IMG/VR virus record: IMGVR_UViG_3300026382_000035 | Location: 1-39,370 of that record | Source of the DNA: a virus | Strand: one strand, 5' to 3' | Length of the DNA stretch: 39,370 nt | Shown: in pieces, positions 5,666 to 34,014 of the stretch | Numbering within the stretch: position 1 is the stretch's first letter | How the letters are laid out: every line of letters starts with the position of its first letter | Translations under genes and position numbers: made by a program | The notes under the pieces: model-generated | What the model was told of the DNA's origin: nothing | Databases searched by the model: none | The model's input: the letters and a program-made list of their open reading frames with translations, nothing else

Positions 5666-7474
5666 ATGTTTACTAATAATGACTTAGATTTAAGAAGTAT
5701 GTTTAAGAAAAACCCAATTTTATCTAGCTTTAGTTCGTATATACCAACTAATATAAAAGATATTTTTAATTGGTCAGAATTTATAATTACTAATGTGCCT
5801 GTAGCAGCAGCTGGGGTAAAAAAAATTTCAGAAACACCAGTTACAAATTTTAAATATGATACAGGTGGCGATTTTAATGAAACTGATTCAAATATAATGA
5901 ATTCATGGAGAAATATAATAGAAAAAGATTTGAGATTAAAAGAAACATTGCTAGATATATCAAACAACATAGAAACATATGGAAATTGTTTTATATCACT
6001 ATATATTCCATTTGTAAGACTTGTAAAATGCAAGGTTTGTGGTAGAATTTCTGATATATCTAATGCTTCAAATCTTAAAGCTAGCATAAAAAAAGAAAGT
6101 AAAGAAGATACAATAGATAACGAGAAAGAAAAAAATGATTTTGATTTAACATCAAAATTAAAACAAAAGAAAACAAAAGAAAGTAGAGTTAAGTTCGTTT
6201 GCATGTGTGATAAATGTAAGTCGACTCAAGAACATATAGTTATAGATAAAACCACAAAAGAAACCAAAGATATGAATGTAGTTATATGGAATCCACACAA
6301 TATGGAAATAGAGTATAACCCTGTTAGTAATACATATAATTATTATTATACACCGGATAGTAATATAAGTGCTGGTATTAAGAAGAATAATAAATTTTTT
6401 TTAAGCACAACACCTATGGAGATGATAGAAACAATACTGGATAACAAAAAATTTAAGTTTGCAAAAAATCAAATATATCATGCTAAAAAAAACAACATTG
6501 CTGGAATTAGTTCAGCTTGGGGTATTCCTAAGTTAGTAGCAGCAATCCCGTCTGTTTTAACATACTTAATATATAATAAAGCAAACGAAAAAATAGCTAT
6601 GGATTATTTAGTTCCATTAAGGTTAATATATCCTGGAGATGCTTCGGGAGAAATGTTTAATTTTATGAGTGGTTCGTCGTTAGCTTCAAAACTTACAAAC
6701 ATTATAGACAAATGGAAATTAGACCCGTCTGGAGTGCAAGTAACACCTTTCCCTGTTGGAACAGAACAAATACTGGGGGATGGTAAAATGTTAAATCTTG
6801 ATGGTGAACTACAACAAAAAGAAATCAATATAGCATCAGCACTAGGAGTTCCTATTGAATTTATTAAAGGTGGTTTAAGTTATACTTCACAAGGTCCATC
6901 TTTAAGACTATTAGAAAACCAATTATCTAAAATAAAATATGATTTAGATAATATTATAGATTTTATTATATCTAAAGTGTCGCATGTTATAGAAAAACCA
7001 AAAATCAATGTATCTCTTATGCCATTTAAAATTATTGATGATTTACAAGAAAAAGCTACTATTGTTCAACTTGCAGCACAAGGAGGTGGTGTTATTAGTA
7101 ATGGTACTCTTATGGAGATATTTAATATGGATGCTCACTCTGAAAAACAAAGAGTAATGGAAGAGCAAAAATTACAGGTTAAACAACAACTTGAAATGCA
7201 AAATTACCAACAAGAACTTCAAACATCATTAGAGCAAAAAGCAAAACAAGAACAAATTATGAACCAAAGTTCTTTCGAAAAACTAAATCAACAAGCTCTA
7301 ATGCAAGAAGCACAACAATATGTTCAGCAGCTTAGTCAAATGGATGAAGGTTCAAGAAAATCTCAACTTGATCAAATGGCTAAAACAAACTATATTATGT
7401 ATGGTGTTGTTAGTTCACTACTTGAAATGCAAAAAAGAAAACAAATGTATGCAGCAGGAAAACAACAACAATAA
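5666..7474 (+). CDS. Portal protein with a Cys-rich (zinc-ribbon-like) insertion
   Basis: A 602-aa protein, the usual size for portals, preceded by AAAGGA. Residues ~270-430 hold the portal-type core: GISSAWGIPKLVAAIPSVL, then DYLVPLRLIYPG, then ASALGVPIEFIKGG and a long helix beginning LLENQLSKIKYDLD. The last ~110 residues are Gln-rich coiled coil, as in many portal C-termini. The portal forms the dodecameric DNA gate at the head vertex. Unusual is the pair Cys122/Cys125 and Cys179/181/184, separated by a very charged linker; together they look like a split zinc ribbon not normally present in portals. The assignment rests on pattern memory, not on a search. Confidence 0.72.
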   Translation: MFTNNDLDLRSMFKKNPILSSFSSYIPTNIKDIFNWSEFIITNVPVAAAGVKKISETPVTNFKYDTGGDFNETDSNIMNSWRNIIEKDLRLKETLLDISNNIETYGNCFISLYIPFVRLVKCKVCGRISDISNASNLKASIKKESKEDTIDNEKEKNDFDLTSKLKQKKTKESRVKFVCMCDKCKSTQEHIVIDKTTKETKDMNVVIWNPHNMEIEYNPVSNTYNYYYTPDSNISAGIKKNNKFFLSTTPMEMIETILDNKKFKFAKNQIYHAKKNNIAGISSAWGIPKLVAAIPSVLTYLIYNKANEKIAMDYLVPLRLIYPGDASGEMFNFMSGSSLASKLTNIIDKWKLDPSGVQVTPFPVGTEQILGDGKMLNLDGELQQKEINIASALGVPIEFIKGGLSYTSQGPSLRLLENQLSKIKYDLDNIIDFIISKVSHVIEKPKINVSLMPFKIIDDLQEKATIVQLAAQGGGVISNGTLMEIFNMDAHSEKQRVMEEQKLQVKQQLEMQNYQQELQTSLEQKAKQEQIMNQSSFEKLNQQALMQEAQQYVQQLSQMDEGSRKSQLDQMAKTNYIMYGVVSSLLEMQKRKQMYAAGKQQQ

Positions 7475-7762: not shown

Positions 7763-8062
7763 ATGGAAGCTAAAAGATTTTTATTAGTAAAACAATCTTC
7801 CGATGATACAAATATAGGACTTCCTGCTGCTTCAACAATAGGTGGATTGGGAGTTGGTGCATATAACACACATAGGTATTTTAAAACATTGGGAGATTAT
7901 AAAAACAAAGACAATTTGCCAGAAAACTTGAAATCTAATGCTAAATTTAATAGAGCCAATAAATGGTTAGCTATAGGTGGACTTGGTTTTGGGTTGTATA
8001 ACGGTGTAAAAACATTGAATAATTTTTCTAATAAAACAAAAAATTTTGAAGGAATAGTATAA
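7763..8062 (+). CDS. Small tagged glycine-rich membrane protein
   Basis: A 99-aa protein that begins MEAKRFLLVKQSSDD, the first example of the N-terminal tag found on several proteins here. Two glycine-rich hydrophobic segments follow (ASTIGGLGVGAY at ~24-35 and LAIGGLGFGLY at ~71-81), separated by a polar stretch, so it probably forms a two-pass or hairpin membrane protein. Its stop codon overlaps the next start (TAATG), implying translational coupling to the 1771-aa protein. No family recognised. By position, after the portal and before tail-type genes, an internal or ejected virion protein is a reasonable guess. Confidence 0.55.
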   Translation: MEAKRFLLVKQSSDDTNIGLPAASTIGGLGVGAYNTHRYFKTLGDYKNKDNLPENLKSNAKFNRANKWLAIGGLGFGLYNGVKTLNNFSNKTKNFEGIV

Positions 8063-11000
8063 TGAGCAATATAAACAACAATAATAATAACAATAATTTG
8101 GAATTATCTTCAACAGCGCCTTATAGTTTTGCTGCAAAAGTAGGTGGGCTTGGTTTGCTTGTTGGACTTGGGAGCAAATACTCCAAGTTATCAAAAGGCA
8201 TAGGAGAAATAGTTTCAAACGGTGTAGTGCGTACACCTGAAGAATTTATATCCAATAAGATGAGTAATCTTAAATCTAAAATGAACTTATTAGAACACAA
8301 TGGACAAATTAATTCTGAAGAATACAAAAATATTAAAAATGAGTTTGATAAATATAATTCTCATATGTATTATAGAGCTGCTAATGATTACGGAGATGGT
8401 GCTAAAGCAGCTGAAGAGTATGCTAAAAAAAATAATATAGAGATGAAACCGTTATCTAATGAAGAGATTAGTTCAATTGAAAAAGAATTGGAAGAAAGAA
8501 AAAGAAATATAGGTAATGAATATGCCCAAAAAGCAGAGTCAGTAATAAATAAAGGCACTATTGGAGCAGGAGCTTTAACAGTTGGAGGTGCCGCAGGAGA
8601 ATATATAGTTAATAAGAAAAATAAGGAAAAGTTTAACAATTATGCTTTAACTAAAATGTCATCAATATTAACTGGTGACACAGAGGATGAAGAAGATAAA
8701 TATGATGATGGTATTGTTACAGACTTATCTAAAAATAAAACAGGGTCTTTGGTTGGATTAGGTATGGGTTCTTTAATAGGTTCTTATGGTTTAAAACATG
8801 GAGCCAAAATGATGGAAACACAAGGTAAGGTAGCTGGTAACTATGTGAAAAATTTAGCCAATGAATCCAATAATATGAGTAGGGAAAATGAAGCCCTATT
8901 AGAAAGATATGGAAAACCTAGTAATATGCCAGAAGATGTTTTAAAAAAGTATGAAGAAAATAAAACTAAAATTAAGCTAAATTTAACTAAACAGGAAGTT
9001 GCTGCTGCTAGAACAGCATTAACTAACTCATCTTTAGCTTCTTGGGCTGAAAAATTAAAATGGTTTTCTGTTGCTCCATTAGCAGTAGGAGCCGCTGGAT
9101 ATTTAAACAAAAAACTAAATCCTTCTAATCCATCTTTAATTAACAATGATGACACTGCAGAAACAATATCAACTATAGGTAATATTGGTAGTTTGGCAGG
9201 TTTAGGGTTGATAGCTGCAGGTTCTCATAGACCATTTATTAAACCTATGTTAAACACATTTAAAGCTGCTAGAAAAGGAAATAAAGACATTAATTTAGAA
9301 GATTTATATGAGGGAACATCTTTTTCTCAAGCTAAAGATGTTGACAAAATAAAAGAAGAGATAGAAAGTAAAAAACCAGAGGACTTTTTAACTGAAGCTG
9401 GTAGAAACGCCGCTAAAGATGAAGCTGCTAAAGATATTGAAGTAGCTAAAAAATCAATAGAAGATGTTCCATTTAAAAATGATTTAAGAGCTGTAGGTAT
9501 TGGGTCAGGATTATTTGGAACTGGTGTTACAGCGAGCAGTATGACACCAAATCAAAAAGAAATAGATACTACTCAAGATAGAAGAGATACATTAAGAAAA
9601 ACATTACTTAAACAGTCTAGCGAGTTAAGATTATCTAATTACTTATATAAAGAAGCATCTCTTGGTTCAATGTTGAGAAATGTAGTTGATAAAACTAAAA
9701 ATGTTGGTAAAAATATTAAAAATGTTGGTAGTAAAGCCAAAAAATATGCTGAAACTGGGACTAAAAAGCTTGACAATGTAAGTTTAGCAACTAAATTGGG
9801 TATAGGTGGTTTAGCAGGAACTATGGGAACTGGAGCAAACTTAGCAAGTAAAGCTGCAGAACACTTTAATTTAGGAGCATTAGGAGAATTAGGAATTCCG
9901 TTAGGTGCTCATGTATTACAAAATATATATATGACTCATTTAGTAAATAATGGATATGTGGGTAGAAAAGCATTAGAGTATGTTAAAGCAGGTAATAAAG
10001 GTAAATTTAATACTACAAAAATAGGGCAGTTTTTAGAAGGTTTACACCACGGAACATTAGCTCCAGATATGAGTGTTGTAAGAAAAGAAGCATTAGAATA
10101 TGGAAAGATGTTTAAAGAGAAAGGTATAGATTTTGAAAATCTTGATCCACACGATAAATTATTTTTAGAATCGTACTTAAAAGGTGATATAAAAAAGATG
10201 CTTGATTCTATGCATAACTCAAAAGTAGCTAGTGTATTAATGTCTAAAGTTATGGGTTCAAGCAAAAAAGCATCAGTAATACAAGAAGCTATGCAAAGAG
10301 CAAAACAAAGCCTTACACCTGAAGATGAAGAAGCTATAAGAAATTCATTAAAAGACTCATCTTTCCATCATTTAGCTGAAGCAATGGTAGGAAAAGATAC
10401 ATTAGGAAGAAAGCTTAATGTTAATAGTGATTATTCAGGAGAAGTAATAAGAAAAGCTTTTGATAATAAAGTTGGTAGATTTTTTTCAGACAAAATGGCA
10501 ACTCCTAAAAAAGTAATTGATAAGATTTTATCTAAACACAATAAAGAAATGGATATAGAAGAAGCCGAAAGAATAAGAACAGGTGGACATATAACTGGTG
10601 GATTAGGTACTATGCTTGTAGACCCACTTGTTGGTGGATGGAATATGGTTAAACCATGGGTTTCTAGCACACCTATTGCTGAAAAATTAACATCTGCTAT
10701 ACTTGCTGGAGATGCTAGTAGAGAGATATTAGGGCAATCAACAAAAGGTGGAATGGTAAGCGGAGCAGCTTCTTCGTTATTATTATCACCTACTTTTTCA
10801 TTAGTTACTGGTGGAGCAGGGCTTACAGGTAAAACTATTAATGAAATAATAAAAAGAGGGCTAACAAAAGAGGAATACAATAAAATTATTAACAACAAAG
10901 ATTTACAGGAAACAGCAGCAGCTCCTGTAGCAAAATTATTTAATGGTTCTATAAATGCTATTGCTAAATTAAAAGGATTGAATAATTTAGAAGCAAAAAT

Positions 11001-13377
11001 AGAAGCACCAAAAGAAAGATTAGTGGATAAAGCTGTAGGAGATGTTAAAGATGTTTTAGGAGAGGGTATTACTAAAGGTCATATAGATAATGAAAAATTA
11101 GCAGATTTAGCTGATGCGTATGGTGAAGAAGCAGGTAATGCTGTTGTAGATGCTTCTACTAAAGCAGCAAATAAATTAAATAATCTAAATCTTAATGCAG
11201 GGTTAAATAGAACAACTGAAGCTAGTGAAGCGTTAACTCATAAATATGGGTTACCTGGGACAATAGCAGGAGCAGCATTACTTTCAACACCAGCGCTTTC
11301 TAGTTCTTATAGAGACTACAAACAAAGAAGAAGAGAAGCATTACAAAAAACAGCAGAATATAATGATGATAATACTCAACCAATGTCTCAAACAAGTTCA
11401 TTATTAGCAGGAGGTGTTGCTGGTGGTTTATTTGGGTATGGTAAAGAGTTAATTAATACTTCTGTTGCACAAAACAATATGAAAGTGGAAATAGAAAATC
11501 TTAAACAACTATTTAAAACAAATCCAAAAGAAGCAATGAAGATTTTTAATGAAGTTAAAAACAATCCAGCTAATAAAGGGTTTGTGAATTCTAAAGAATT
11601 TAAAGATTTAGAAAACCATATAACAGATTTTCATAATAAATATATAGATATTGAGACTAATAGTGATGAGGTTAAAAAACTTAAAGCATTAGAAGAAAAA
11701 TTCAATAAAATGAAAATACCTACTAACCAAGAAAAAGGGTATTTTATTCCTACTCTAAAAAGTTTTTACCATATGGCATCTAATAAAGAGGCTATGGATG
11801 AATTAAATAAAATAAAAGAAGCAGGAATAGATACATCAGAAGTGGATAAATTGTTAAGTAGTTTTTATGCTAAAAAGAAAAAAGTGATTGATGAATTTAA
11901 AGAGAGTGGTGCTGTTCATGGAAAAGGTAATGCTCTATTAAATAAAAATATAGAAAATGCTACAAATGTTATAAAACCAAGCTTAATGAAAGTATTAGGT
12001 AAAACAACATTAGGGGCAGGTATTGGTGCTGGAGCAGCGTATTTAGGTAATAAATTATATAACTCTTCTGCTAGAACACAATATAAAGATGGTGAAAATT
12101 TCAAAGAAGAGCCTATAACTGATAAAATAGGAATAGGTACAATATTAGGGACTGGAGCAGGTATAGGTTTTATGAAAGGTAAAAATAAAATCATATCTAG
12201 TTTAATAAACAAAACTCTTGATGATCCGTATATAAGTTTAGAAGCAAAAAATTCATTACTTAACTCACTTATTCCATCACACAGAGGTTCAACTGATTAC
12301 TTAGGAGAAACAATAAAACATAAATTATTTGGTGGGTATGGTGCAGATGCTGAAAAAGCTACAAAACATGGTATAGCTAAGCCTTATATGGATTTAGATG
12401 AAATTAAAAATAAAATACATGTATCGCAAAAAGCTGGAGAAATGGATGATATAGTTTCAGGAAGTATAGCAGGTGGTTCTATGGGAGCATTAGCAGGTGG
12501 ATATATCGGTATGCAGTCTAATGCAAACAAAAGAAATGATTATGCTTTAGTGAATAACCCTTCTTTATTATTAAAACAATCAAATTTTAATGCCACACAA
12601 CAAATGCAACAACCACAAGAAAATCACGATAATGCTATAATTGCAGCCCCTTTAATTGCTGGTGCAGGTACTGGAGGAGCTATAGGGTGGCAAAGAAGTG
12701 GTTTAAAACAGCTTACTTCACAATCAAGATTAGATTCTTTAAAAGAAGTTAATAATACTTTTAAAGATATAAATAAAGACGATTTCCATAAAGTATTTAA
12801 AAACCACCAAGTAACTTCTGATGTTATAGAGAATTTACAAAATTATAACGCTGGTAAAAAAGTTTTAACTTCTCAACAAATAAAAGAATTTAATGAAGCT
12901 AAAGCAAAATTAAATGAATTGCTAGAAAAAAAAGCTCCATTAGAACTTAATTTAGCAGCATATAACGCAGCAAAAAGCCAAAGAAACGAATTGTTACATG
13001 GTTCAAAAGCAGAATTAGCTGACGGAATGGGAGATTTAATTTCTAAAAACATACCTAAAGACCTTATTGATACATCTCTAGGGGAACATGCATTAATAGA
13101 TCAAACTGACCCTAAAGTAGAAGAATTTGTTAGAAAGAATCAAGAGGAATTGTGGAACCATGAACAAGAAATAAGTAAACATAGAGATATAATTAATAAA
13201 CATAGTAAAACAATATTAGGTTCATTAGATGAAGTATTGCCTGATATAGAAAGAGAACATAAACTTATTCCTTTAAAAGGAACACTGAAAGGTGCAGGAA
13301 TAGGTTTAGGAGTGGGAGCATTAGGAAGTGCATTACTTGCTCACGATTTACATAAAAACAATAATATAAATCAATAA
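8062..13377 (+). CDS. 1771-aa multi-module glycine-zipper membrane protein
   Basis: The largest gene. It starts with an Asn-rich stretch and then alternates glycine/alanine-rich hydrophobic segments (for example VGGLGLLVGLGS, LVGLGMGSLIGSYGL, LGAGIGAGAAYLG, AGGSMGALAGGYIG, AGIGLGVGALGSALLA) with long charged helices. Sequences like the N-terminal tag of neighbouring proteins recur inside it: LLKQSS (515-520) with YLYKEAS (527-533), LQKTAE (1094-1099) and LLLKQS (1502-1507). Each follows a glycine-rich segment and a basic linker, exactly as the end of one tagged gene is followed by the start of the next further downstream. It therefore looks like about four tagged proteins fused. An ejected, membrane-inserting internal virion protein is inferred; a tape measure is less likely given so many glycine zippers. 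Confidence 0.6.
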   Translation: MSNINNNNNNNNLELSSTAPYSFAAKVGGLGLLVGLGSKYSKLSKGIGEIVSNGVVRTPEEFISNKMSNLKSKMNLLEHNGQINSEEYKNIKNEFDKYNSHMYYRAANDYGDGAKAAEEYAKKNNIEMKPLSNEEISSIEKELEERKRNIGNEYAQKAESVINKGTIGAGALTVGGAAGEYIVNKKNKEKFNNYALTKMSSILTGDTEDEEDKYDDGIVTDLSKNKTGSLVGLGMGSLIGSYGLKHGAKMMETQGKVAGNYVKNLANESNNMSRENEALLERYGKPSNMPEDVLKKYEENKTKIKLNLTKQEVAAARTALTNSSLASWAEKLKWFSVAPLAVGAAGYLNKKLNPSNPSLINNDDTAETISTIGNIGSLAGLGLIAAGSHRPFIKPMLNTFKAARKGNKDINLEDLYEGTSFSQAKDVDKIKEEIESKKPEDFLTEAGRNAAKDEAAKDIEVAKKSIEDVPFKNDLRAVGIGSGLFGTGVTASSMTPNQKEIDTTQDRRDTLRKTLLKQSSELRLSNYLYKEASLGSMLRNVVDKTKNVGKNIKNVGSKAKKYAETGTKKLDNVSLATKLGIGGLAGTMGTGANLASKAAEHFNLGALGELGIPLGAHVLQNIYMTHLVNNGYVGRKALEYVKAGNKGKFNTTKIGQFLEGLHHGTLAPDMSVVRKEALEYGKMFKEKGIDFENLDPHDKLFLESYLKGDIKKMLDSMHNSKVASVLMSKVMGSSKKASVIQEAMQRAKQSLTPEDEEAIRNSLKDSSFHHLAEAMVGKDTLGRKLNVNSDYSGEVIRKAFDNKVGRFFSDKMATPKKVIDKILSKHNKEMDIEEAERIRTGGHITGGLGTMLVDPLVGGWNMVKPWVSSTPIAEKLTSAILAGDASREILGQSTKGGMVSGAASSLLLSPTFSLVTGGAGLTGKTINEIIKRGLTKEEYNKIINNKDLQETAAAPVAKLFNGSINAIAKLKGLNNLEAKIEAPKERLVDKAVGDVKDVLGEGITKGHIDNEKLADLADAYGEEAGNAVVDASTKAANKLNNLNLNAGLNRTTEASEALTHKYGLPGTIAGAALLSTPALSSSYRDYKQRRREALQKTAEYNDDNTQPMSQTSSLLAGGVAGGLFGYGKELINTSVAQNNMKVEIENLKQLFKTNPKEAMKIFNEVKNNPANKGFVNSKEFKDLENHITDFHNKYIDIETNSDEVKKLKALEEKFNKMKIPTNQEKGYFIPTLKSFYHMASNKEAMDELNKIKEAGIDTSEVDKLLSSFYAKKKKVIDEFKESGAVHGKGNALLNKNIENATNVIKPSLMKVLGKTTLGAGIGAGAAYLGNKLYNSSARTQYKDGENFKEEPITDKIGIGTILGTGAGIGFMKGKNKIISSLINKTLDDPYISLEAKNSLLNSLIPSHRGSTDYLGETIKHKLFGGYGADAEKATKHGIAKPYMDLDEIKNKIHVSQKAGEMDDIVSGSIAGGSMGALAGGYIGMQSNANKRNDYALVNNPSLLLKQSNFNATQQMQQPQENHDNAIIAAPLIAGAGTGGAIGWQRSGLKQLTSQSRLDSLKEVNNTFKDINKDDFHKVFKNHQVTSDVIENLQNYNAGKKVLTSQQIKEFNEAKAKLNELLEKKAPLELNLAAYNAAKSQRNELLHGSKAELADGMGDLISKNIPKDLIDTSLGEHALIDQTDPKVEEFVRKNQEELWNHEQEISKHRDIINKHSKTILGSLDEVLPDIEREHKLIPLKGTLKGAGIGLGVGALGSALLAHDLHKNNNINQ

Positions 13378-13389: not shown

Positions 13390-13716
13390 ATGAGATCAAA
13401 TGAATTTGTTTTATACAAAATGGCAGAGGATGCAGCATATGATACTAATGATAATGAAAACTTAGGTATAGATTTAAAACAAGGTTATCAATTAGCACAA
13501 GACAAAGGATATATTCCTGCAACTGTATTAGGTGTAGGGGGAGTTTTGTCTGGTAAAGGTTTTAAAGATAGAAGTATAAGAGGTCTTGCAGGTGTAGGAG
13601 CTGGATTAGTTGGAACTATAGCTGCAAAAGCAGGGGTTGATGTTTATAAAAGACATAAACACAGAGCTGAAGCAGAGAAGAAATTAAAAGAACAAATGAT
13701 ATACGGAGAAATGTAG
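13390..13716 (+). CDS. Small tagged glycine-rich membrane protein
   Basis: A 108-aa protein with AAAAAGGATA upstream. It begins MRSNEFVLYKMAEDA, matching the shared tag. Residues ~50-85 are glycine-rich and hydrophobic (ATVLGVGGVLSGKGF and GLAGVGAGLVGTIAAKAG), followed by a basic C-terminus (VYKRHKHRAEAEKKLKEQ). Organisation is tag, acidic segment, membrane hairpin, basic tail. It is in the same operon as the giant protein, 12 nt downstream. Likely an internal virion or membrane-active protein; no known family. Confidence 0.55.
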   Translation: MRSNEFVLYKMAEDAAYDTNDNENLGIDLKQGYQLAQDKGYIPATVLGVGGVLSGKGFKDRSIRGLAGVGAGLVGTIAAKAGVDVYKRHKHRAEAEKKLKEQMIYGEM

Positions 13717-18935: not shown

Positions 18936-19136
18936 ATGGATAGTAGTAATTTTGTTTTATTTAAGACAGCATATAATGAACATTCTCACCATGGAGCTCA
19001 ATTTGCTGCAAAAAGAAGGAGAAGCATGGGGTTTAAACCTCATGACTACACTCCAATACAAAGAAATCAATTTAAACGACAAATGAAAAGACAACAAAGG
19101 CAATATAATCTTACTGGTTATAGAGGCGGATATTGA
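18936..19136 (+). CDS. Very small tagged basic protein
   Basis: A 66-aa protein beginning MDSSNFVLFKTAYNE, a good match to the shared tag, but with no membrane segment. The rest is strongly basic and His/Arg/Gln-rich (HSHHGAQFAAKRRRS, RQMKRQQRQYN). It could bind DNA inside the head, a common property of internal head proteins. Its TGA overlaps the next ATG (TGATG). The lack of glycine zippers argues that the tag is not simply part of a membrane domain. Confidence 0.55.
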   Translation: MDSSNFVLFKTAYNEHSHHGAQFAAKRRRSMGFKPHDYTPIQRNQFKRQMKRQQRQYNLTGYRGGY

Positions 19137-20239
19137 TGAAAAGATATAGATTAATAAAAACAGCAGCAGATAGATTTAAAGATGATTTGTCAGGTAACAA
19201 AAGACTATTTGGTCCTGATGTTGATTATGAAGAAATAGAAAGAAGAATACATAATGGAGAACATGATTTAATAGGTAGGCTTCTAAATAATGCTGATGAT
19301 AAATTTCGAAAACATGGTGGAGGTTATCTTACTATTGGGAATAACAAAAGTAATGAGATACTGTATATAGATAAATTACACAATAAAGTATTTAATGAAG
19401 GTAAAGCTGGTTTACATAGAACATACGTTCAAAAAGTAAAAGAAGCTATAGCATACCATCAGTTAGCAAATGATTTGGCGTTTAATGATGCTAAAAACAT
19501 TAAGCAAATTTATGGTGATTTTGATTTATCTAAAAATTATAAATACCATCCATTGGAAAATATTGTTAATGATTATGTTAAGGGTGGTAAGAATATGCAT
19601 GGACATGCTTATAGGGCAATAACGCAAGACCCTGATTACATAAACAATATAAATCGTATGAAAAAGGAAAATTCAACAGATTTTAGTTGGTTTAAGCCTA
19701 AGTATGTAGATGAAAACAAATTACCTATTCATGAAGCAAAAGAAGCAGAGTTTAATCTGTTTAAATACACAAAAAAGAACAATAAAAAAGAAAATACATC
19801 AAATATAAAACAAGGAGAGCAGACAATGAATAATAGAATATTAAATAGCAATGAAGTTAGTAAAGTAGACCAATTTTTGTTCAATAATCATCCAGAGGTT
19901 TATTATAATTTTCATAAAAAATTAGACGAGGAAATAACTGAAGCGGCAGGAACAGATGAACCTAATGCCTTAAAGAGTTTTATTGCTACTCCAAAAGGTG
20001 TAGAGATTTACAATAAACATTACGCTAATTTATTAAATACACATTCAGACAAGTTAAAGCCTGTTTTAGGAGAAGAACATCCTGCTTTTGATAAAGCAGG
20101 GTTTATCAGTGTTCCTAACAAATCTGCATTTGAAAAACTTATGGAACATAAAGGTAAAATAGGTGCAGGAGTAGGTTTAACTGGATTAGGTGCTTATGCT
20201 TATTTAAGAAGTAAAGATAATTCAAAGGATAGAAAGTGA
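19136..20239 (+). CDS. Tagged protein with C-terminal glycine-zipper anchor
   Basis: A 367-aa protein; ATG 19136 is preferred over the in-frame TTG one codon earlier because it gives TGATG coupling. It begins MKRYRLIKTAADRF, a match to the shared tag. The long soluble middle is basic and unrecognised. The C-terminus (GKIGAGVGLTGLGAYAYLRS then a charged tail) is a single glycine-rich membrane segment. The same ending is present in the next protein, with 33 identical bases (20181-20213 and 20996-21028), which implies duplication or exchange of the anchor module. Confidence 0.55.
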   Translation: MKRYRLIKTAADRFKDDLSGNKRLFGPDVDYEEIERRIHNGEHDLIGRLLNNADDKFRKHGGGYLTIGNNKSNEILYIDKLHNKVFNEGKAGLHRTYVQKVKEAIAYHQLANDLAFNDAKNIKQIYGDFDLSKNYKYHPLENIVNDYVKGGKNMHGHAYRAITQDPDYINNINRMKKENSTDFSWFKPKYVDENKLPIHEAKEAEFNLFKYTKKNNKKENTSNIKQGEQTMNNRILNSNEVSKVDQFLFNNHPEVYYNFHKKLDEEITEAAGTDEPNALKSFIATPKGVEIYNKHYANLLNTHSDKLKPVLGEEHPAFDKAGFISVPNKSAFEKLMEHKGKIGAGVGLTGLGAYAYLRSKDNSKDRK

Positions 20240-21028
20240 AAGCAGCAAGTTATTTATTGCTAAAAACAGCAGAAAATGAGCAGCAAAGAGATATTACTAC
20301 TCCTGCCTTAATAGGAAGTGGTCTTTTAATTGGAGGCGCTGGTGGAGCAAGTTATATGCATGGCAATTCATTGGAGAATAAAAATAAATCACTTCATAAA
20401 ACAAAAGATGAATACCTTAGTAGAAAAAAAACGCCGGAGGAGTTGAAGAAATTATATGAATTAAAGGAAAGTGGAAAAGAATTTGTTACTTATTTAAAAA
20501 GACAAAAAGAAAATATAAAAAATAATTATACTCCAGAAGTAGAAAAAAACTTTAATAAATTTAAAGAGTTTCATGATGTATACAGTAAAACACCATTATC
20601 GGAAATACCAGAGGGAATAGAAAAAGCAGAACCAGGAATGCATTATACTTACGGAAAAGATGAACATCTTGATTATATGTATAAAACAATTAAAAACAAA
20701 AATCCTGAATTGTTACAAAAACATAATATAAAAAATTATGAGGACTTTAAGAAATTATATGAGAGTCAAAACGATTTTTTCCATAACACATATGGAGATG
20801 GGTATCATGAAGGATTGAAATATGCTGATAATAAAATTGATGAATATAAAAAAGATCTTAATGATATTTCCCAACAAATAAAACAGGATACTGAAATCCA
20901 ATCTAAGATCGATAATTTGTTACCTGAAATACAACAAAATGAAGAACTCGCAAAGAGATTTAAGCTTGGCGGTAAAGTAGGTATAGGAGCAGGAGCTGGA
21001 TTAGGTGCTTATGCTTATTTAAGAAGTA
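20181..21028 (+). repeat. 33-bp exact direct repeat at the ends of adjacent genes
   Basis: The 33 bases at 20181-20213 recur exactly at 20996-21028 and encode the same GLGAYAYLRS anchor end in two adjacent genes. Surrounding codons differ, so the identity looks like recent duplication or gene conversion. Confidence 0.75.
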
Positions 21029-21054
21029 GAAACAAATCAAAGGATGGAAAATGA
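20236..21054 (+). CDS. Tagged protein with two glycine-rich membrane segments
   Basis: A 272-aa protein starting at GTG inside a GTGA overlap. N-terminus MKAASYLLLKTAENE matches the tag. A glycine-rich segment follows at ~22-42 (PALIGSGLLIGGAGGASYM). A long charged helical region separates it from the C-terminal anchor (GIGAGAGLGAYAYLRS and a basic tail). The layout tag, membrane segment, helix, membrane segment, basic tail is the same as one presumed module of the 1771-aa protein. Function unknown; ejected or internal virion protein inferred. Confidence 0.55.
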   Translation: MKAASYLLLKTAENEQQRDITTPALIGSGLLIGGAGGASYMHGNSLENKNKSLHKTKDEYLSRKKTPEELKKLYELKESGKEFVTYLKRQKENIKNNYTPEVEKNFNKFKEFHDVYSKTPLSEIPEGIEKAEPGMHYTYGKDEHLDYMYKTIKNKNPELLQKHNIKNYEDFKKLYESQNDFFHNTYGDGYHEGLKYADNKIDEYKKDLNDISQQIKQDTEIQSKIDNLLPEIQQNEELAKRFKLGGKVGIGAGAGLGAYAYLRSRNKSKDGK

Positions 21055-22175
21055 AAAATTACAATTTAGTTAAGACAGCGATAGACAGAGCAACAAAAGA
21101 AATGCAAAAAGGTGAATTATCTGCTGAAGCATTAGAAAAAATGAGACAAGCAGGTATGATTAGAAGCCCATTAAGATATGCATATGGATTAAAAAAAGGT
21201 ACTGATAATTTAGCTAACAAAAATGGTTATAAAGTAGTTTACTTTACAGATAACAAAGTGGAAGGATACCCTTCTGGTCATGATATATATGAAAAAATAG
21301 GTGTAAATCCTGCTCAAATGGGAGGCGCTTTTACATATCCTGAAGCTAAAACTATTTATACTGCTCATCCATTTGTTGGAACAAATAATAATCCAAAAAT
21401 TCAATTAAATAACTCTATAGCTGCTTTTCATGAAGCAAACGAAGCATTGTATGATAGAAAAAGACAAAGAACTATAACTCTTCATCGACAACCTGCATCT
21501 AAATCTAGACTGGCTTTAGAAAAAATTCTTCAAGAGCCTGAAGAAGTAACTGAAACACAACAAAGATTAATTAATGAGAAGTATGGAAATGAATTTGACA
21601 AACTTACACCAATAGAAAAATATAGAGCAATTGAAGAGGCAAGACAACATCCTGATACGCAAAAAGTAATAAAAGATTTGCATAATCAATATGCTAACAA
21701 TAAGTTACCTGATAAACATGCTACAATTGGAATGCATGTTTCTCCACATGTATTACTTAATGAGGCAGATATGATGTCAAAAATACCTTACCAACATCAT
21801 TTTTACGGAAACCAAGCTTTATTAGGAAGTATAAGGCATGCCACAGGAGAAAATAGTTATTTAACAAGAATAACAGGTAGAAATGTTTATAGAACTGGTA
21901 AAAGACCTGGTGATGCTAAAAAATTATGGAATGAATTTAATAATACTAAAACAATACGACAAGGTAAGCAAAAATATAATATTTTAAATATGGCACCTCT
22001 GGATGAGAATAAAGTATATCACACTAAAAGAGCTGTATATGATACACCAGAAAATATAGCTAAGTATGAAGAGAATGAAATGAAAAAATTTGAGGAAAGA
22101 ATGGCTAGACGTAAAGCAATAAAGTCTAGTCTATATGGGAAATTTAAGAGCATGATTAATAAAGTTAGAAGATAA
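21051..22175 (+). CDS. Tagged soluble protein, 374 aa
   Basis: Starts at an ATGA overlap. N-terminus MKNYNLVKTAIDRATKE matches the tag. Unlike its neighbours it has no glycine-zipper segment and appears soluble, with a basic C-terminus (FKSMINKVRR). The centre contains AAFHEANEALYD, which recalls a metallopeptidase helix but has Glu where the second His of HExxH would be, and HATIGMHVSPHVLLNEADMM, a possible second His cluster. An enzyme carried in the virion would fit but is speculative. No family recognised. Confidence 0.5.
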   Translation: MKNYNLVKTAIDRATKEMQKGELSAEALEKMRQAGMIRSPLRYAYGLKKGTDNLANKNGYKVVYFTDNKVEGYPSGHDIYEKIGVNPAQMGGAFTYPEAKTIYTAHPFVGTNNNPKIQLNNSIAAFHEANEALYDRKRQRTITLHRQPASKSRLALEKILQEPEEVTETQQRLINEKYGNEFDKLTPIEKYRAIEEARQHPDTQKVIKDLHNQYANNKLPDKHATIGMHVSPHVLLNEADMMSKIPYQHHFYGNQALLGSIRHATGENSYLTRITGRNVYRTGKRPGDAKKLWNEFNNTKTIRQGKQKYNILNMAPLDENKVYHTKRAVYDTPENIAKYEENEMKKFEERMARRKAIKSSLYGKFKSMINKVRR

Positions 22176-22416: not shown

Positions 22417-22450
22417 ATATTTTAAACCTACTACATATAAGGATGAATAA
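22403..22450 (+). CDS. Possible 15-codon ORF coupled to the next gene
   Basis: Reads MKTDEYFKPTTYKDE and ends in TAATG, sharing a base with the start of the gene at 22450. The overlap style is that of real genes in this genome, but the ribosome binding site is weak and the product is tiny, so it may only be a coupling leader. Confidence 0.25.
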   Translation: MKTDEYFKPTTYKDE

Positions 22451-23760
22451 TGAGAAGTTTTAGTTTAATAAAAGCAGCATCAAATGATTATGACTCTGTT
22501 ATCGATGGACTACTGTCTGGCGAATTCCACAGAAATGATCTTGTAATAAATGATGACGATGAGAGAACAAAGAGATATAATAAAAAAGTGATGGAAGATA
22601 AATCATATTATGATAAAGTTGAAAAAGCAAAAGAATTACAACGTAGAATGGAAATGGCTGCGTGGAAAGATGAAAAGAGAGAAGAAAGGCCATCAAAAGG
22701 TTTTTGGGGTGGCATTAAAGATAAAATAGACGATATAACAAGTGGTCCAACGGACAAATATATGGGTCTTGATGATTTCGGGAATGATAAACATATAGAA
22801 ATTTTAGAAGAATTAAGGCCACACATATCTGAAGACACACACAAAAAACATCATGACTTTATTCTAAAATCAATACAACAAAAAGCTGGTTCCATAAAAG
22901 AGAAAAAAATCGGTAGTTTTATTTCGAGATTACAAGGGTATAAACCAACGCATTTAACTGATAAAGAAGTAGAATATTACACTAAACATAAAGGCTCGTT
23001 AGGGAGTGATATTGTAAAACAAAATAATATAAATAAAAGCTTTAAACCAAAATCATCAGAAGCAGATCCATATGGAATAAGAAAATATATTCGCGGACAT
23101 AATGTTACTGGAATAGGAGTGGGAGCATTAGGTGTTGGAAGTGTTTTAAATAAGAAATTCAACAATAAAGAAAAACTTGACGGTTCAGATGCTGTTATGT
23201 TGGGTGGTTCTGCATTGGCATTAGGTGGTGCTGGATATGGTTCTGTTATGAATAAAAAATACGATGATAAGTATAACGAGGGATATAGTAAAGTAAAAAA
23301 GATAGATAGTGAAATAGAAGAAATAGAAAAGCGAATGCCTAGTGGGAGAGATATTAAACTTGAGAATATTAAATATGATAAAGAGCTTGATAGATTGTAT
23401 GATGAAGTAAATAGAATATCAGAACAAATGTATGATGATATTAATAATGCAAATAGTGGAAAAGAAATAGATAAAATAATGGCAAAATACAGAAAAGATA
23501 GTAAAAAAATAGATAACAAAATATCTGAAGTTAAAACAAAGACAAAGAAAATATTCCCTGCATTACATAAAGAAGAGGAAGTTGGGAAAGAATTGTCAAA
23601 AAAACGCGATGAATGGAAGGATGCGTTTAGAAAAACTCGTTCATTAAGAGACGGGCTTGATTTTCATAAAAAAATAACAGCTGGGACAATAGGAGCAGGG
23701 ACTCTATTAACTGCTGGTGGATTTTTGTATAATAAATATAAAAAAAGGGACAGAAAGTAA
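22450..23760 (+). CDS. Tagged protein with internal and C-terminal glycine zippers
   Basis: A 436-aa protein with AAGGA 5 nt upstream. It begins MRSFSLIKAASNDY, matching the tag. Glycine-rich membrane segments occur at ~220-232 (TGIGVGALGVGSVL), ~250-264 (VMLGGSALALGGAGYG) and the C-terminus (AGTIGAGTLLTAGGFLY followed by a basic tail). The rest is highly charged coiled coil. It has the most complex topology among the single-module tagged proteins and resembles part of the 1771-aa protein. Function unknown; membrane insertion after ejection is inferred. Confidence 0.55.
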   Translation: MRSFSLIKAASNDYDSVIDGLLSGEFHRNDLVINDDDERTKRYNKKVMEDKSYYDKVEKAKELQRRMEMAAWKDEKREERPSKGFWGGIKDKIDDITSGPTDKYMGLDDFGNDKHIEILEELRPHISEDTHKKHHDFILKSIQQKAGSIKEKKIGSFISRLQGYKPTHLTDKEVEYYTKHKGSLGSDIVKQNNINKSFKPKSSEADPYGIRKYIRGHNVTGIGVGALGVGSVLNKKFNNKEKLDGSDAVMLGGSALALGGAGYGSVMNKKYDDKYNEGYSKVKKIDSEIEEIEKRMPSGRDIKLENIKYDKELDRLYDEVNRISEQMYDDINNANSGKEIDKIMAKYRKDSKKIDNKISEVKTKTKKIFPALHKEEEVGKELSKKRDEWKDAFRKTRSLRDGLDFHKKITAGTIGAGTLLTAGGFLYNKYKKRDRK

Positions 23761-24319: not shown

Positions 24320-26019
24320 TGAACCTGCACTGGGGATTTTTTTATGACTCTTGGTTGATAGATAGAGTTCCTAGTGTTTTACCTTTAACAATAGAAGAAA
24401 CTAACAATGGTTGGAGAATTAATCCAGCTGAACTAACAATGTATTTTGGGGCAAATCCTTATTATTTATATGGGGAAGGTAAAATGTATCATGAAGTGTT
24501 GTTTTGTGAAACAGGAATGTTTCCTATGCCTTTTATATATGGTAGACCTGGATTAGAATTTATATCAGAAATGAGTGTTTCTTTGGATAGTAGTAGAGAT
24601 TGGTTAGGAAGATATGTTGGTGAAAAAATGGTAGGTAGAGTTGAAGTTGCAGATTTTATTAAAAAATACACAGAGAAGTTCTATGGTATATCAGAAGCTA
24701 ACCCTGCCAGAATAGCCGGTGTATCTTCAGAATTGGTTGATTTTGATAATGCTTCAGCCAAATTAGCTTTTGCTCCTTCTTTTGAAACTGCTTTTGATAC
24801 TGTTGATGAATTAAGAAACTCATTTAACCCTGTAATGTATCTAACTATGTATTTAGTTGAAAATTTATATACAAAAGAGATGATGTCTGGAGATAAGGTT
24901 AAAGTTATCACTCCTTTTACAACAATATATACGAAAGAAGGTATTCTTAAACCTACAATAAATCTAAAGAATTGTAAATTAGATATAACTAAATATGCTA
25001 AAAAAGCATTTTCAGAAGACGCAGAAGAGATTACAATCTTCTTTAAAACAAATAAATACTTTTTAGGTGGGTTAGTATTCGATTACAGTGGAACGTTGCT
25101 TGAAGGGGCTTCTAACTATGGTTTTAGGCTATATTTAGATAGATTAGGATTAAAAATTGTAAGTAATCAAGGAAATAAGGAACCAGATACTTTTCAACTG
25201 CCTATTGATATAGATTTTAGAACACCAAGAGCTTTTGTTATAAATATAAAATATGGTAAATATATAAAAGTGTTTATAAGTGGAGACGATGTATACAAGT
25301 TTAACTATAAAGTGTTTAAACCTAAGTTTAAAGATATAGATAATGATACTTGTATTTTATCAGGTTTCTCAAAAAGTAAAGAATATGTTCAAACAGGTAA
25401 TTTTGAAGAGTTTGGTTTTGCTACAAAGATGATGAGTGATGATGTCCTAAATAGTTTTTTATCATTTAATCAATTATTAAATATTGCTGAATTACCAGAA
25501 GTCCCTGAATCTCCTACTCCTGTTGTTGATAACCTTATGTATAGTTTAGATAAATCTATACTAATACCAAGAGGTGTAGATGTTAAAGAAGGTATAGAAG
25601 GATATGAAGTGGACAGCATAACTCCTACTATAGATATAGCTAAAAAAGTTTATTTGAGTAATGGTAATAAAGGAATAAGAGAAGCATATTTAAGTGCCCC
25701 ATTTACACATACTGCTTCATTACCAGGGAGAGAAGATAAAAGTAAGTATTCGTTATCTGAATTAGTAATTAGACCAGGTGAATATGTTTTTGGAGCATAT
25801 GGATATCCTGATAAAGCATTTGATGATACTACAGAGTTCTTTAAGATAGTTAAAAAAATAACATCTGACACTCATATTCCTATGAAAATAAAATTTAAAT
25901 TCAAAGTGCCTAAATGGGTAACAAGACAAACAGCAGGAATGATGCAACTTAAATTAACTTCTGTCGAAGATATTATATGGTATCATTATAAAAAATTTAA
26001 GACAGGAGAATGGCTCTAA
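24319..26019 (+). CDS. Large tail or surface structural protein
   Basis: A 566-aa aromatic-rich protein (start MNLHWGFFYDSWLIDRV) of the same style as the proteins at 13.7 and 15.6 kb. Residues ~240-320 (EITIFFKTNKYF, GLVFDYSG, GFRLYLDRLGLKIVSN) resemble a concanavalin/LamG-like jelly-roll, a common carbohydrate-binding fold in tail proteins, but the match is only by pattern. No membrane segment or signal peptide. A terminator overlaps the end of the gene. A tail, fibre or baseplate role is likely. Confidence 0.45.
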   Translation: MNLHWGFFYDSWLIDRVPSVLPLTIEETNNGWRINPAELTMYFGANPYYLYGEGKMYHEVLFCETGMFPMPFIYGRPGLEFISEMSVSLDSSRDWLGRYVGEKMVGRVEVADFIKKYTEKFYGISEANPARIAGVSSELVDFDNASAKLAFAPSFETAFDTVDELRNSFNPVMYLTMYLVENLYTKEMMSGDKVKVITPFTTIYTKEGILKPTINLKNCKLDITKYAKKAFSEDAEEITIFFKTNKYFLGGLVFDYSGTLLEGASNYGFRLYLDRLGLKIVSNQGNKEPDTFQLPIDIDFRTPRAFVINIKYGKYIKVFISGDDVYKFNYKVFKPKFKDIDNDTCILSGFSKSKEYVQTGNFEEFGFATKMMSDDVLNSFLSFNQLLNIAELPEVPESPTPVVDNLMYSLDKSILIPRGVDVKEGIEGYEVDSITPTIDIAKKVYLSNGNKGIREAYLSAPFTHTASLPGREDKSKYSLSELVIRPGEYVFGAYGYPDKAFDDTTEFFKIVKKITSDTHIPMKIKFKFKVPKWVTRQTAGMMQLKLTSVEDIIWYHYKKFKTGEWL

Positions 26020-26045
26020 CCTTAAATGAAACTTAAGGCTTTTTA
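26020..26045 (+). terminator. Terminator after the 566-aa protein gene
   Basis: CCTTAA 26020-26025 pairs with TTAAGG 26033-26038 around a 7-nt loop, followed by CTTTTT. It begins the base after the stop codon. Confidence 0.6.
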
Positions 26046-26146
26046 CTGTTTTTACAGAAATCCTTAAGCAAACTTTAAGAAAAGTGTTGTTTTTCGTATA
26101 TAGAGATAAGGGTAAACCCCCCACTTTTCTTAAATGAAACTTAAAT
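26021..26146. repeat. Direct and inverted repeat cluster in a 150-bp gap
   Basis: CTTAAATGAAACTTAA occurs at 26021-26036 and again from ~26129. A perfect 13-bp inverted repeat joins 26074-26086 with 26122-26134. CTGT-TTTT-ACAG and GGG-TAAA-CCC add smaller hairpins. The 13-bp arms enclose a stretch with TTTTTCGTATATAGAG. It looks like a control region for the gene starting at 26170. Confidence 0.5.
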
Positions 26147-26169
26147 TGTTAAAAAATTGGAGTATATTT

Positions 26170-27321
26170 ATGAATTTATTAAAAGAAGCAAAAACAAGAT
26201 TGTGGAAAGAAGTGGATAGGCTGCTAAATTCAGGAACAGAAGAAGATAGAGCAAAAGCAATGTCTATTCTAAGTCAAGTATCAGTTCATACTAATAGAAG
26301 AAATTCTTTTTATGGAATGCCAACTAAAAATAGAAAGAAACTGTCTTTAAGAGAAATTAACAGTATTGTTAGTGAGAATGGTTCTAGTGAAAACTATAAG
26401 AAAGCATACAGAAAGAATTTAAAGTCAAAAGAAGATGAGTATTTTAAAGGTGGGAAAAACAGTGTTTTTGCTACTGATGAAAGAACCTTTTTGAAATATA
26501 AAAACAGACTTCCTTTGAAGACATACGACTCTATAAAAGATGAAGTATTGTTTTCCCCAAAAGATGCAGAAGATAAAATAATGTTTTTCTCAAAAGACAC
26601 TTTTAATAACCATAAGTTCAATGCTTTTAATTATTTAAAAAGCAAAAATTTATATTTTAAAAATAAAGAAGATGAAGTTAAAGCATTAGATAAATTATTC
26701 TTAGATCCAGAAGAGATGCAAAAAGAACTTCAATTGGAAAAGACTTTTGAAAAAGGACGCATTCCTTCATCTCCAGACAAAATAAATTTAATACACAAAT
26801 ATAAAAATAAAAACCCAAACAATCCTGTATTCCCTGCTTCTACAGTAGGGGTTAGTAATTTAAAATATCAGTACAAAAGAAATAAATATTTTGTTCCTAA
26901 AAATGGTAAGGTGGTTTATGGTAGAAATGGATATGCTACAGCAATAGAGCCAGGATTGTATGCTACAGACCAGATGCCATTACTGTATCAAAGATATGCA
27001 GAAAAAGGCAAATTAACAGATGATGATATAAACAATATATTATCATCAGAACATATGATGACTCATTATAGAGGTTTTAAAATGGATGATGGTGATATCC
27101 CAGCAATTATGAGGCTTAAAGGAACAAATTATTCTAAAAAATATAAGGATACTATTAAACCTGATGTAATAGACTCTGAAGATGAAGTAATTGTCCCTTT
27201 AAAGGATTATAAAAATTATAATGTAGAACCTTTTCACAAAGGTAGAATTTTAGAAGATAAAATTCATTCAAAGATAATATCTGAATTTAACACAAATACA
27301 AAAAGGAATAGAAATGGCTAA
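26170..27321 (+). CDS. Hypothetical protein, possible ADP-ribosyltransferase-like
   Basis: A 383-aa basic protein. ATG 26170 is chosen because TTGGAG lies ~9 nt upstream; the longer frame starts inside the repeat cluster. The first residues MNLLKEAKTRL loosely resemble the shared tag. Residues ~255-370 contain VVYGRNGYATAIEPGLYATD, then LLYQRYAEKG, MTHYRGFKMDD and SEDEVIVPLKDY. These recall the G-x-Y-x-T strand, YRG and ExE motifs of ADP-ribosyltransferases, some of which are injected by phages, but no clear STS motif is visible and spacing is short. I treat this as a weak hypothesis. Confidence 0.45.
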   Translation: MNLLKEAKTRLWKEVDRLLNSGTEEDRAKAMSILSQVSVHTNRRNSFYGMPTKNRKKLSLREINSIVSENGSSENYKKAYRKNLKSKEDEYFKGGKNSVFATDERTFLKYKNRLPLKTYDSIKDEVLFSPKDAEDKIMFFSKDTFNNHKFNAFNYLKSKNLYFKNKEDEVKALDKLFLDPEEMQKELQLEKTFEKGRIPSSPDKINLIHKYKNKNPNNPVFPASTVGVSNLKYQYKRNKYFVPKNGKVVYGRNGYATAIEPGLYATDQMPLLYQRYAEKGKLTDDDINNILSSEHMMTHYRGFKMDDGDIPAIMRLKGTNYSKKYKDTIKPDVIDSEDEVIVPLKDYKNYNVEPFHKGRILEDKIHSKIISEFNTNTKRNRNG

Positions 27322-28408
27322 AAACAAAAAAAACAATAATTATACAGGCTTGGGAATAGGTGTTGCTGGTGGTGGTTTATACGGACTTGGTTCATATTTT
27401 AAAAAAGATGTTGGTAGACAACTAAAAGAGAGTACAAAAACACTGCAAGATATAGAAAAAGGAATAGCACAGGAAGAAAAAGATATTAATATGGGTAAAA
27501 AGTATATAAAAGAAATAAAAGACAAATACGGAAATAGTGAGACTTTTGATACATTAAGTTTTCAATACAAAAATAAATTAAATAATAATATTATAACACT
27601 ACCTGGGTTAATTAGGGAAAATAGAGACAATATTAAAAAGTTAAAGAAAGAAATAACCCTAAAAGAAAAGAATAGTATCAGTATATTAAGAAGAGAATTA
27701 GAAACTCAAGAAAGAGAAAGAAAAATGTTAATGGATGAAATAGAAAAAATAGATAAAACCATAAAGAATATGGATAAATTAAAAAATAATGTAAAACAAA
27801 CTATGAAAAGCGTAAGTGAAGAAAAAAAGAGAATGGAAAATAGAATGATGACAGAAGCTGAATTTAATAGCTTTAAAAAGAATATAGACAAAAAAATTAA
27901 AGATAATGAAAATCTCCATAAAATAATAAAAAAAGATAGGGAGTTAATTAAGCAAAGAGATGAAACAATTAGAAAGATTAAAAAGATAGACAAAAGAATA
28001 GAATCATTAGAAAGACAAATTAGTAAAATAGGGCACAATAGTGTAAAAGAAACAGAAATAATTAATCTTAGAAGTAAGTATTCTAAATTAGAGAAAGAAA
28101 ATCTAGATTTAGTTGATAAATTAACAGATTCTAAAAGAGCACTAAGAGAGTTAGAAGAGTATTTAAAAAAAATTGAAAGCGAAGTTAATAATACTAGTGT
28201 GTTGGATGAAGAATTACTTGCTTCGGCTCAAAAGGGATTGGAATATGAAAAAAACAATACTTTACCAACTTGGCAAAAAATAGTTAAAAACAATAACATT
28301 AAAATGAAAGCTGCTGATTATATAGGTAAAGCAGGTATAGGTGTAGGTATAGCAGGCGCTTCTAAGTTTATTTATGACAAGTATCAAAACAGAAAAAAAT
28401 CCTTATAA
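27314..28408 (+). CDS. Coiled-coil protein with membrane segments at both ends
   Basis: A 364-aa protein overlapping the previous gene by 8 nt. A glycine-rich membrane segment lies at ~11-28 (YTGLGIGVAGGGLYGLGSYF), then ~280 residues of extremely charged Lys/Glu/Ile coiled coil, then a C-terminal anchor (IGKAGIGVGIAGASKFIY) and a basic tail. It has no tag. A long rod tethered at both ends could span the periplasm or fold back as a hairpin. It closes the glycine-zipper series. Function unknown. Confidence 0.55.
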   Translation: MAKNKKNNNYTGLGIGVAGGGLYGLGSYFKKDVGRQLKESTKTLQDIEKGIAQEEKDINMGKKYIKEIKDKYGNSETFDTLSFQYKNKLNNNIITLPGLIRENRDNIKKLKKEITLKEKNSISILRRELETQERERKMLMDEIEKIDKTIKNMDKLKNNVKQTMKSVSEEKKRMENRMMTEAEFNSFKKNIDKKIKDNENLHKIIKKDRELIKQRDETIRKIKKIDKRIESLERQISKIGHNSVKETEIINLRSKYSKLEKENLDLVDKLTDSKRALRELEEYLKKIESEVNNTSVLDEELLASAQKGLEYEKNNTLPTWQKIVKNNNIKMKAADYIGKAGIGVGIAGASKFIYDKYQNRKKSL

Positions 28409-28422
28409 ATAATGGGTTTTTT
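28394..28422 (+). terminator. Terminator ending the virion block
   Basis: AAAAAATCC 28394-28402 pairs with GGGTTTTTT 28414-28422 (one G-U); the stop codon is within the loop. The A-rich arm could make it work in both directions. Confidence 0.6.
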
Positions 28423-28454
28423 CTTGAAATTGTGTTATTTTTGTGATATTATTT

Positions 28455-28460
28455 TACAAT
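28455..28460 (+). promoter_or_regulatory. Promoter -10 for the DUF3310/Rep operon
   Basis: TACAAT preceded by TTATTTTTGTGATATTATTT, 22 nt before the ATG at 28482. It follows the terminator at 28394-28422. Confidence 0.45.
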
Positions 28461-28481
28461 AAATAAAACAAGGAGAAAAAA

Positions 28482-29495: not shown

Positions 29496-29497
29496 AA

Positions 29498-30394: not shown

Positions 30395-30461
30395 ACCAAC
30401 AACTTCTTCTCCTTCTTTTTTCCTTACAAATAACATCATTTTGAATATTTGTTTTTTTTAA

Positions 30462-30467
30462 TATAAT
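30462..30467 (+). promoter_or_regulatory. Promoter -10 for the prepilin gene
   Basis: TATAAT preceded by GTTTTTTTTAA, 26 nt before the ATG at 30493, with AAAAAAAAGGA between. Confidence 0.6.
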
Positions 30468-30492
30468 TGTGTTAAAAAAAAGGAATAAAAAC

Positions 30493-30921: not shown

Positions 30922-30988
30922 TTAAATTTTAAGTTAAAATTAAGAATTAGTTAGATATAATTCTATTGCTATGTATAATTATAGTCTT

Positions 30989-31019
30989 ACAAGTGGTTCA
31001 CCCCCTTTCCACTTGTTTT
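30989..31019 (+). terminator. Terminator after the prepilin gene
   Basis: ACAAGTGG 30989-30996 pairs perfectly with CCACTTGT 31009-31016, followed by TTT. Two TATAAT boxes (30956-30961 and 30974-30979) lie just upstream, so a very short RNA from here is also possible. Confidence 0.5.
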
Positions 31020-31059
31020 ACCTACACTCAAAAAATATCCCCCTTATGTAAAATAAAAT

Positions 31060-31089
31060 AAAAAAACTCTCTATATATAATGTTTTTTT
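31060..31089 (+). terminator. A-tract/T-tract hairpin fused to the next promoter
   Basis: AAAAAAAC 31060-31067 pairs with GTTTTTTT 31082-31089. The T-run immediately precedes GG and the -10 box at 31092, so one sequence could serve both as terminator tail and promoter T-stretch. Confidence 0.4.
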
Positions 31090-31091
31090 GG

Positions 31092-31140: not shown

Positions 31141-31157
31141 AAAACAAGGAGAGAATA

Positions 31158-32186: not shown

Positions 32187-32189
32187 ATA

Positions 32190-32396: not shown

Positions 32397-32397
32397 A

Positions 32398-33948: not shown

Positions 33949-33987
33949 AATTGAGTAAAGTTGATTGAATGTATTTATTTTTTTTGA

Positions 33988-33993: not shown

Positions 33994-34014
33994 AAACAAA
34001 AAAAAGGATAAACA

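Follow-up and report, generated by a model that had tools for sequence, protein, structure and literature searches.

A tagged gene downstream of the portal

The window analysed here is a 39,370-bp viral fragment from IMG/VR. It encodes a portal protein and, downstream of it, a protein of 1771 aa in which a short tag recurs (Table 1), and the upstream portal gene marks the head-gene context of this protein. Small proteins encoded nearby start with tag-like motifs such as FLLVKQSS, VLYKMAED, LLLKTAEN, LVKTAID, and LIKAASND. Relatives in GenBank are Salmonella phage Arash and Vibrio phage D181, and contigs G001 to G004 and further IMG/VR relatives were also compared. The 1771-aa protein had no significant Pfam, PHROG, or PDB family match in family and structure searches. 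Apart from a 1616-aa protein of G002, collection scans with a single sequence or a two-row alignment as the query recovered no further homologue, and no fusion of this kind was present in Arash, D181, G003, G004, or 14 further records of the clade; two fused examples are known.

Table 1. Head-gene features of the window, with the segments and tags of the 1771-aa protein
Feature	Positions	Strand	Remarks
Portal protein	5666..7474	+	27% identity to Arash portal, 64% to G001, 63% to G002
Tagged 99-aa protein (MEAKRFLLVKQSS)	7763..8062	+	Free-standing; stop overlaps start of 1771-aa gene
Multi-tag protein, 1771 aa, putative head-internal polyprotein	8062..13377	+	ORF translation; G002 homologue, 30% identity
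Segment 1, aa 1-200	8062..8661	+	aa 40-190 resemble 179-aa tagged protein of same phage
Internal tag 1, YALTKMSS, aa 194-201	8641..8664	+	G002 equivalent LIKQSSDGD
Segment 2, aa 201-519	8662..9618	+	No free-standing counterpart found
Internal tag 2, TLLKQSSE, aa 514-521	9601..9624	+	G002 equivalent RLVKQSSA
Internal tag 2b, YLYKEASL, aa 527-534	9640..9663	+	Top N-terminal-tag matrix score; absent from G002
Basic glycine-rich module of ~85 aa headed by tag 2b	9640..9894	+	Missing in G002 homologue
Segment 3, aa 533-1098	9658..11355	+	Contains gp100-like domain
gp100-like domain, aa 612-759, GAHVLQNI...	9895..10338	+	Homologous to tagged proteins that stand alone in Arash, D181, G002, and five IMG/VR phages
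Internal tag 3, ALQKTAEY, aa 1093-1100	11338..11361	+	G002 equivalent HLGKTASD
Segment 4, aa 1099-1507	11356..12582	+	Best matches: 272-aa protein (20236-21054) and G002 424-aa protein (L010:2545-3819)
Internal tag 4, LLLKQSNF, aa 1502-1509	12565..12588	+	G002 equivalent MLLKKQSSD
Segment 5, aa 1508-1771	12583..13374	+	Runs from tag through Gly-rich segment, coil, and second Gly-rich segment to basic end
Tagged 108-aa protein (MRSNEFVLYKMAED)	13390..13716	+	Free-standing
Tagged 66-aa protein (MDSSNFVLFKTA)	18936..19136	+	Free-standing
Tagged protein (MKRYRLIKTAAD)	19136..20239	+	Free-standing
Tagged 272-aa protein (YLLLKTAENE)	20236..21054	+	Free-standing; segment 4 counterpart
Tagged protein (MKNYNLVKTAID)	21051..22175	+	Free-standing; G002 homologue L011:5880-7067 keeps tag, MNALLKLSAD
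Tagged protein (MRSFSLIKAASND)	22450..23760	+	Free-standing
Weaker-tag protein, start MNLLKEAKTR	26170..27321	+	Free-standing

The end of the window (25807-39370) coincides with the start of contig G004 (IMG/VR contig 3300026484_000382), the two being identical at 13,564 of 13,564 bases, and G004 continues for ~61 kb more. This 74.7-kb contig encodes an MCP (L037:1336-2271), scaffold-like proteins, a protease (L037:10767-11432), and further tagged proteins. This identity shows that the phage represented by the window has a head-maturation protease and an MCP, both encoded outside the window. The protease orthologue of G001, 67% identical to that of G004, matches PHROG 18299 (head maturation protease; E value, 1e-9), and the protease has relatives in Rhodococcus phage E3 and Gordonia phage Stormageddon that are annotated as prohead or capsid maturation proteases. 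Modelling of the protease with AlphaFold gave a poor result (pLDDT 50), and a fold search with the model returned noise alone and no structural match, so the assignment rests on sequence profiles.

In relatives (L002:13207-17520, L003:13297-17658), the portal gene is followed by three small genes and then by one for a large beta/beta'-type RNA polymerase protein homologous to Arash gp206; at the equivalent position the window has the 99-aa and 1771-aa tagged genes. The window also encodes a type IV pilin-like protein (30496-30921) with an N-terminal methylation motif (Pfam E value, 5.9e-6), whose nearest N-termini come from Campylobacterota and reach 83% in Nautiliaceae, a hint as to the host. 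A small open reading frame at 34015-34230 contains the internal repeats IKAGWPD-GTC and ALMANT-WPP.

Internal tags and free-standing counterparts of the segments

The tags of the 1771-aa protein are each preceded by a glycine-rich hydrophobic stretch and then by a polar or basic linker of ~10 to 36 residues. These stretches (residues 167-183, 475-491, 1063-1080, and 1464-1480) have a moderate hydropathy of 1.0 to 1.7, and the Gly-zipper match in G002 is weak, its E value of 0.038 falling short of the cutoff. At the putative P1 position, three of the internal tags (1, 2, and 4) carry S and not A. A sequence-only reading of this DNA had listed tags at ~515-533, 1094-1099, and 1502-1507, each after a glycine-rich segment and a basic or polar linker. 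The three named sites were recovered (514-520, TLLKQSS, with 527-533, YLYKEAS; 1093-1099, ALQKTAE; 1502-1508, LLLKQSN), and the described order of elements held at each joint once the stretches had been mapped; the list had missed a fourth site, YALTKMSS at 194-201.

The 1771-aa protein shows no enrichment of the loose motif [LIVMFY]xKx[AS] (12 copies versus 9.0 expected, with 20 of 100 shuffles reaching 12), and counting motifs therefore proves nothing by itself for this protein. A scoring matrix trained solely on 25 N-terminal tags of other proteins ranked K530, K1505, K198, and K1096 as its top four sites, and the scores at ranks 2 to 4 (11.0, 10.2, and 9.1) exceeded the shuffle 95th percentiles of 8.4, 6.8, and 6.0. 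The G002 homologue lies on a 161-kb contig whose portal is 63% identical to that of the window. The two large proteins are 30% identical, and the tags at 198, 517, 1096, and 1505 share alignment columns with tags of the homologue (P = 3e-4 for random placement); tag 2b sits in the ~85-aa segment that G002 lacks. At the N-terminal position, tags occur in 19 predicted proteins of the window and G004, versus 5.9 expected and a maximum of 13 in 300 shuffles.

Several segments also have counterparts as separate genes, with gene boundaries that fall at the joints. Residues 40-190 of segment 1 match the 179-aa protein by hhalign (91%; E value, 1.1e-6; score, 45.4, against 19.8 for the best of 60 shuffles), and the stop codon of this free-standing tagged gene (L034:18055-18594, minus strand, on G004) lies where tag 1 begins. 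The gp100-like domain behind tag 2 gives the corresponding picture for a gene start. Arash gp100 and its five IMG/VR homologues begin with M[EQ]K[QE][AS][SG] and continue directly into GGH[VA]LQN, and D181_0070 instead has GLKKEA preceding AAAAQN. A profile built from seven free-standing homologues was run with hmmsearch through every predicted protein of the window and G001 to G004; it matched a free-standing 302-aa protein of G002 (E value, 2.2e-7), the 1771-aa protein (8.9e-6), and the 1616-aa protein of G002 (3.6e-4), with the next match at 0.11, and in a separate HMMER run the domain was found in G002 at 2e-6. BLASTP between the 1616-aa and 302-aa proteins of G002 was not significant, the link being visible with profile methods alone. 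The domain directly follows tag 2 in G002, whereas the ~85-aa module with tag 2b intervenes in the window.

At tags 3 and 4 the matches are weaker. Segment 4 aligned tag to tag with its two best matches, both free-standing tagged proteins, at hhalign scores of 31.6 and 31.2 (the top two of 378), with shuffles reaching 18.8 and 24.1, and segment 5, which shares its plan and length with the 272-aa protein encoded at 20236, matched this protein and the 99-aa protein (7763) tag to tag more weakly; since coiled and glycine-rich sequences inflate such scores, the matches of both segments are suggestive. Overall, the comparison with related phages, in which split versions with boundaries at the internal tags had been sought, found them at tag 2 and, within the same phage, at tag 1 (a gene end); the boundary at tag 2 is a gene start (that of gp100 and its relatives). 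The suggestion that tagged proteins had been concatenated in evolution is borne out by these genes, and, judged from sequence, it is well supported that the 1771-aa protein is an evolutionary fusion of tagged proteins.

A motif common to the head proteins of the clade

The same motif clusters in head proteins and is shared by the MCP, the protease, the scaffold-like proteins, and the internal proteins of the clade. Arash gp218 to gp226 contain 41 copies versus 9.5 ± 2.8 in shuffles, and the other structural proteins of Arash contain 73 versus 58.6 ± 7.3. Scaffold-like proteins carry 8 to 12 spaced copies, a pattern that is repeated in independent Arash-like contigs. Near the N terminus of the MCP, LxKxA is invariant among the window's phage, G001 to G003, and Arash, down to 37% identity, and the D181 MCP retains it as GLTKEAGAA. 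In the protease, one copy lies just upstream of the catalytic region in G001 to G004, Arash, D181, and phage G; the last three have another copy downstream of that region. The consensus of 91 head sites is L-x-K-x-A-S, which is partly fixed by the search pattern itself. As far as sequence comparison can tell, the L-x-K-x-[AS] tag is a clade-wide head-protein motif, and in occurring in the scaffold, in the MCP, and around the catalytic region of the protease it is distributed as a site for the prohead protease is.

Related arrangements were seen in other proteins. The protease relative gp19 of Bacillus phage G (L022:11704-12606) has GLVKTAA before and ILEKVAS after the catalytic region, and its neighbour gp20 starts with MSKKISRLKKTALMP; the motif may therefore reach this distant giant phage. 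Arash gp97 (L020:5924-7243), labelled structural, appears to be a smaller multi-tag protein in which KxA tags alternate with glycine-rich segments. A 351-aa protein of G004 (L036:14998-16053) has a double internal tag, LVKQSSAGNYLIVKTAGLS, resembling LLKQSSELRLSNYLYKEASLG of the window, and is probably another multi-part substrate.

Putative processing in the prohead and comparison with known systems

The tag behaves as a recognition motif for the clade's head-maturation protease would, and we therefore regard it as likely that the 1771-aa chain is a polyprotein, composed of head-internal and probably ejected proteins, that is cut at its tags by that protease. From the sequence comparisons we infer cleavage at these tags, the exact position of the cut, packaging, and ejection. 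L-x-K-x-A would be the recognition site of the prohead protease, probably cut directly after A or S, with S preferred as the next residue. On a single small protein, the N-terminal tag would direct its carrier to the core of the prohead and then be removed, like the capsid-targeting sequence of T4; within the 1771-aa chain, the same site would recur at every joint of the ancestral proteins. The precursor would be packaged a single time, and cleavage at about five sites would follow inside the prohead. The expected pieces are residues ~1-200, 201-519, 520-532, 533-1098, 1099-1507, and 1508-1771, and owing to the extra tag at 194-201, fragments once put at ~520, 580, 410, and 270 residues are now predicted at about 200, 319, 566, 409, and 264 aa, together with a 13-aa peptide. 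Bounded by glycine-rich hydrophobic segments, the pieces would probably leave the head together with the DNA and insert into the membrane of the host. Points against this reading are the lack of motif enrichment in the 1771-aa protein, the S at the putative P1 of three tags, the missing free-standing counterpart of segment 2 and the weak ones of segments 4 and 5, the small number of fused examples, and the poor protease model with no structural match.

The glycine-rich segments hint at ejection and insertion into a membrane, of the kind proposed for gp47 of phage SPN3US, and by their glycine-zipper-like character and by analogy they may have a channel-forming role in ejection. The full proposal, in which one polyprotein of ejected membrane proteins is cut in the prohead at capsid-targeting LxKxA sites, so that packaging and stoichiometric release are coupled to head maturation, seems to us slightly more probable than its negation.

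The main rival is a fusion that is never processed, in which the tags act as capsid-targeting or core-binding signals, multivalent binding aids packaging, and one long chain works as a single ejection protein. Such a chain would account equally well for the fusion and for the conservation of the tags, and packaging needs no cut, since most SPN3US head proteins (42) are uncleaved (PMC10052503). However, the motif flanks the catalytic region of the protease and riddles the scaffold-like proteins, where T4-like proteases cut, and the MCP copy lies near the N terminus, the site of propeptide removal in other phages; we therefore consider an uncut chain unlikely, though it deserves to be taken seriously. 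A protease-independent role of the tag in protein interaction or membrane association, for instance as an amphipathic dock on the portal or scaffold that was repeated by module duplication, is less likely still and in our view improbable: tags that are short, hydrophobic, and basic and that adjoin glycine-rich segments would suit a dock, but the copies in the MCP arm, those flanking the protease domain on either side, and the 8 to 12 spaced copies in the scaffold would be left unexplained. That a loose motif merely recurred in a lysine-, leucine-, and alanine-rich protein, as its lack of enrichment in the 1771-aa protein would allow, is nearly excluded by the matrix ranking, the four-site conservation, and the homologous genes that begin or end at tags.

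If the 1771-aa protein is indeed a polyprotein cut at its tags, LxKxA would be a readable code that marks head-internal and ejected proteins across a large clade that has been little studied (Arash-like phages and G001 to G004, with signs in phage G), and cargo would become predictable from sequence. A polyprotein strategy familiar from animal viruses is suggested inside a phage prohead, and Arash offers a cultured host for work on the motif in virions. Prohead processing and capsid-targeting tags are already known. In the open-licence literature, we found no paper on Arash, no account of LxKxA as a motif for prohead cleavage, which may be published elsewhere, and no case of tagged internal proteins joined with cut sites kept at the joints.

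Sites of the T4 prohead protease have the form LxE and end in E. The T4 internal proteins IPI to IPIII and Alt carry an N-terminal capsid-targeting sequence (CTS) of ~10 to 20 aa that is removed by the prohead protease gp21, and the same motif occurs in the scaffold, MCP, and protease (in part from PMC7411985). The likeness to our phage therefore lies in a short N-terminal tag on head-internal proteins whose motif is also present in the scaffold, MCP, and protease. In contrast to T4, where the sites end in E and the proteins have separate genes, the motif here is LxKxA and several proteins are, as known from sequence, joined in one chain.

The proposed processing also resembles that in phages of the SPN3US and phiKZ type, which have ejection proteins (gp47, gp53, and gp54). 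In SPN3US, about 50 head proteins have been described, with multiple cuts per propeptide at the motif A-x-E and a protease (gp245) that cuts itself (PMC10052503, PMC5694885), and the mature form of the ejection protein gp47 starts with a predicted membrane helix (PMC5694885). However, cleavage at A-x-E takes off propeptides and leaves no fused mature proteins parted from one another, and the motif of the 1771-aa protein is LxKxA. The N-terminal 10 to 30 residues of DarB of phage P1 direct this large internal protein into the head (PMC9024508), which resembles the role proposed for the N-terminal tags described here; unlike the 1771-aa protein, DarB has no internal repeats of the signal and is not known as a polyprotein. 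Further comparisons come from the clade itself. Arash gp100, a separate 258-aa protein, and D181_0070, likewise free-standing, start with the tag and are homologous to the domain behind tag 2, and Arash gp97, with its alternation of KxA tags and glycine-rich segments, has a profile match to segment 4 that runs from tag to tag.
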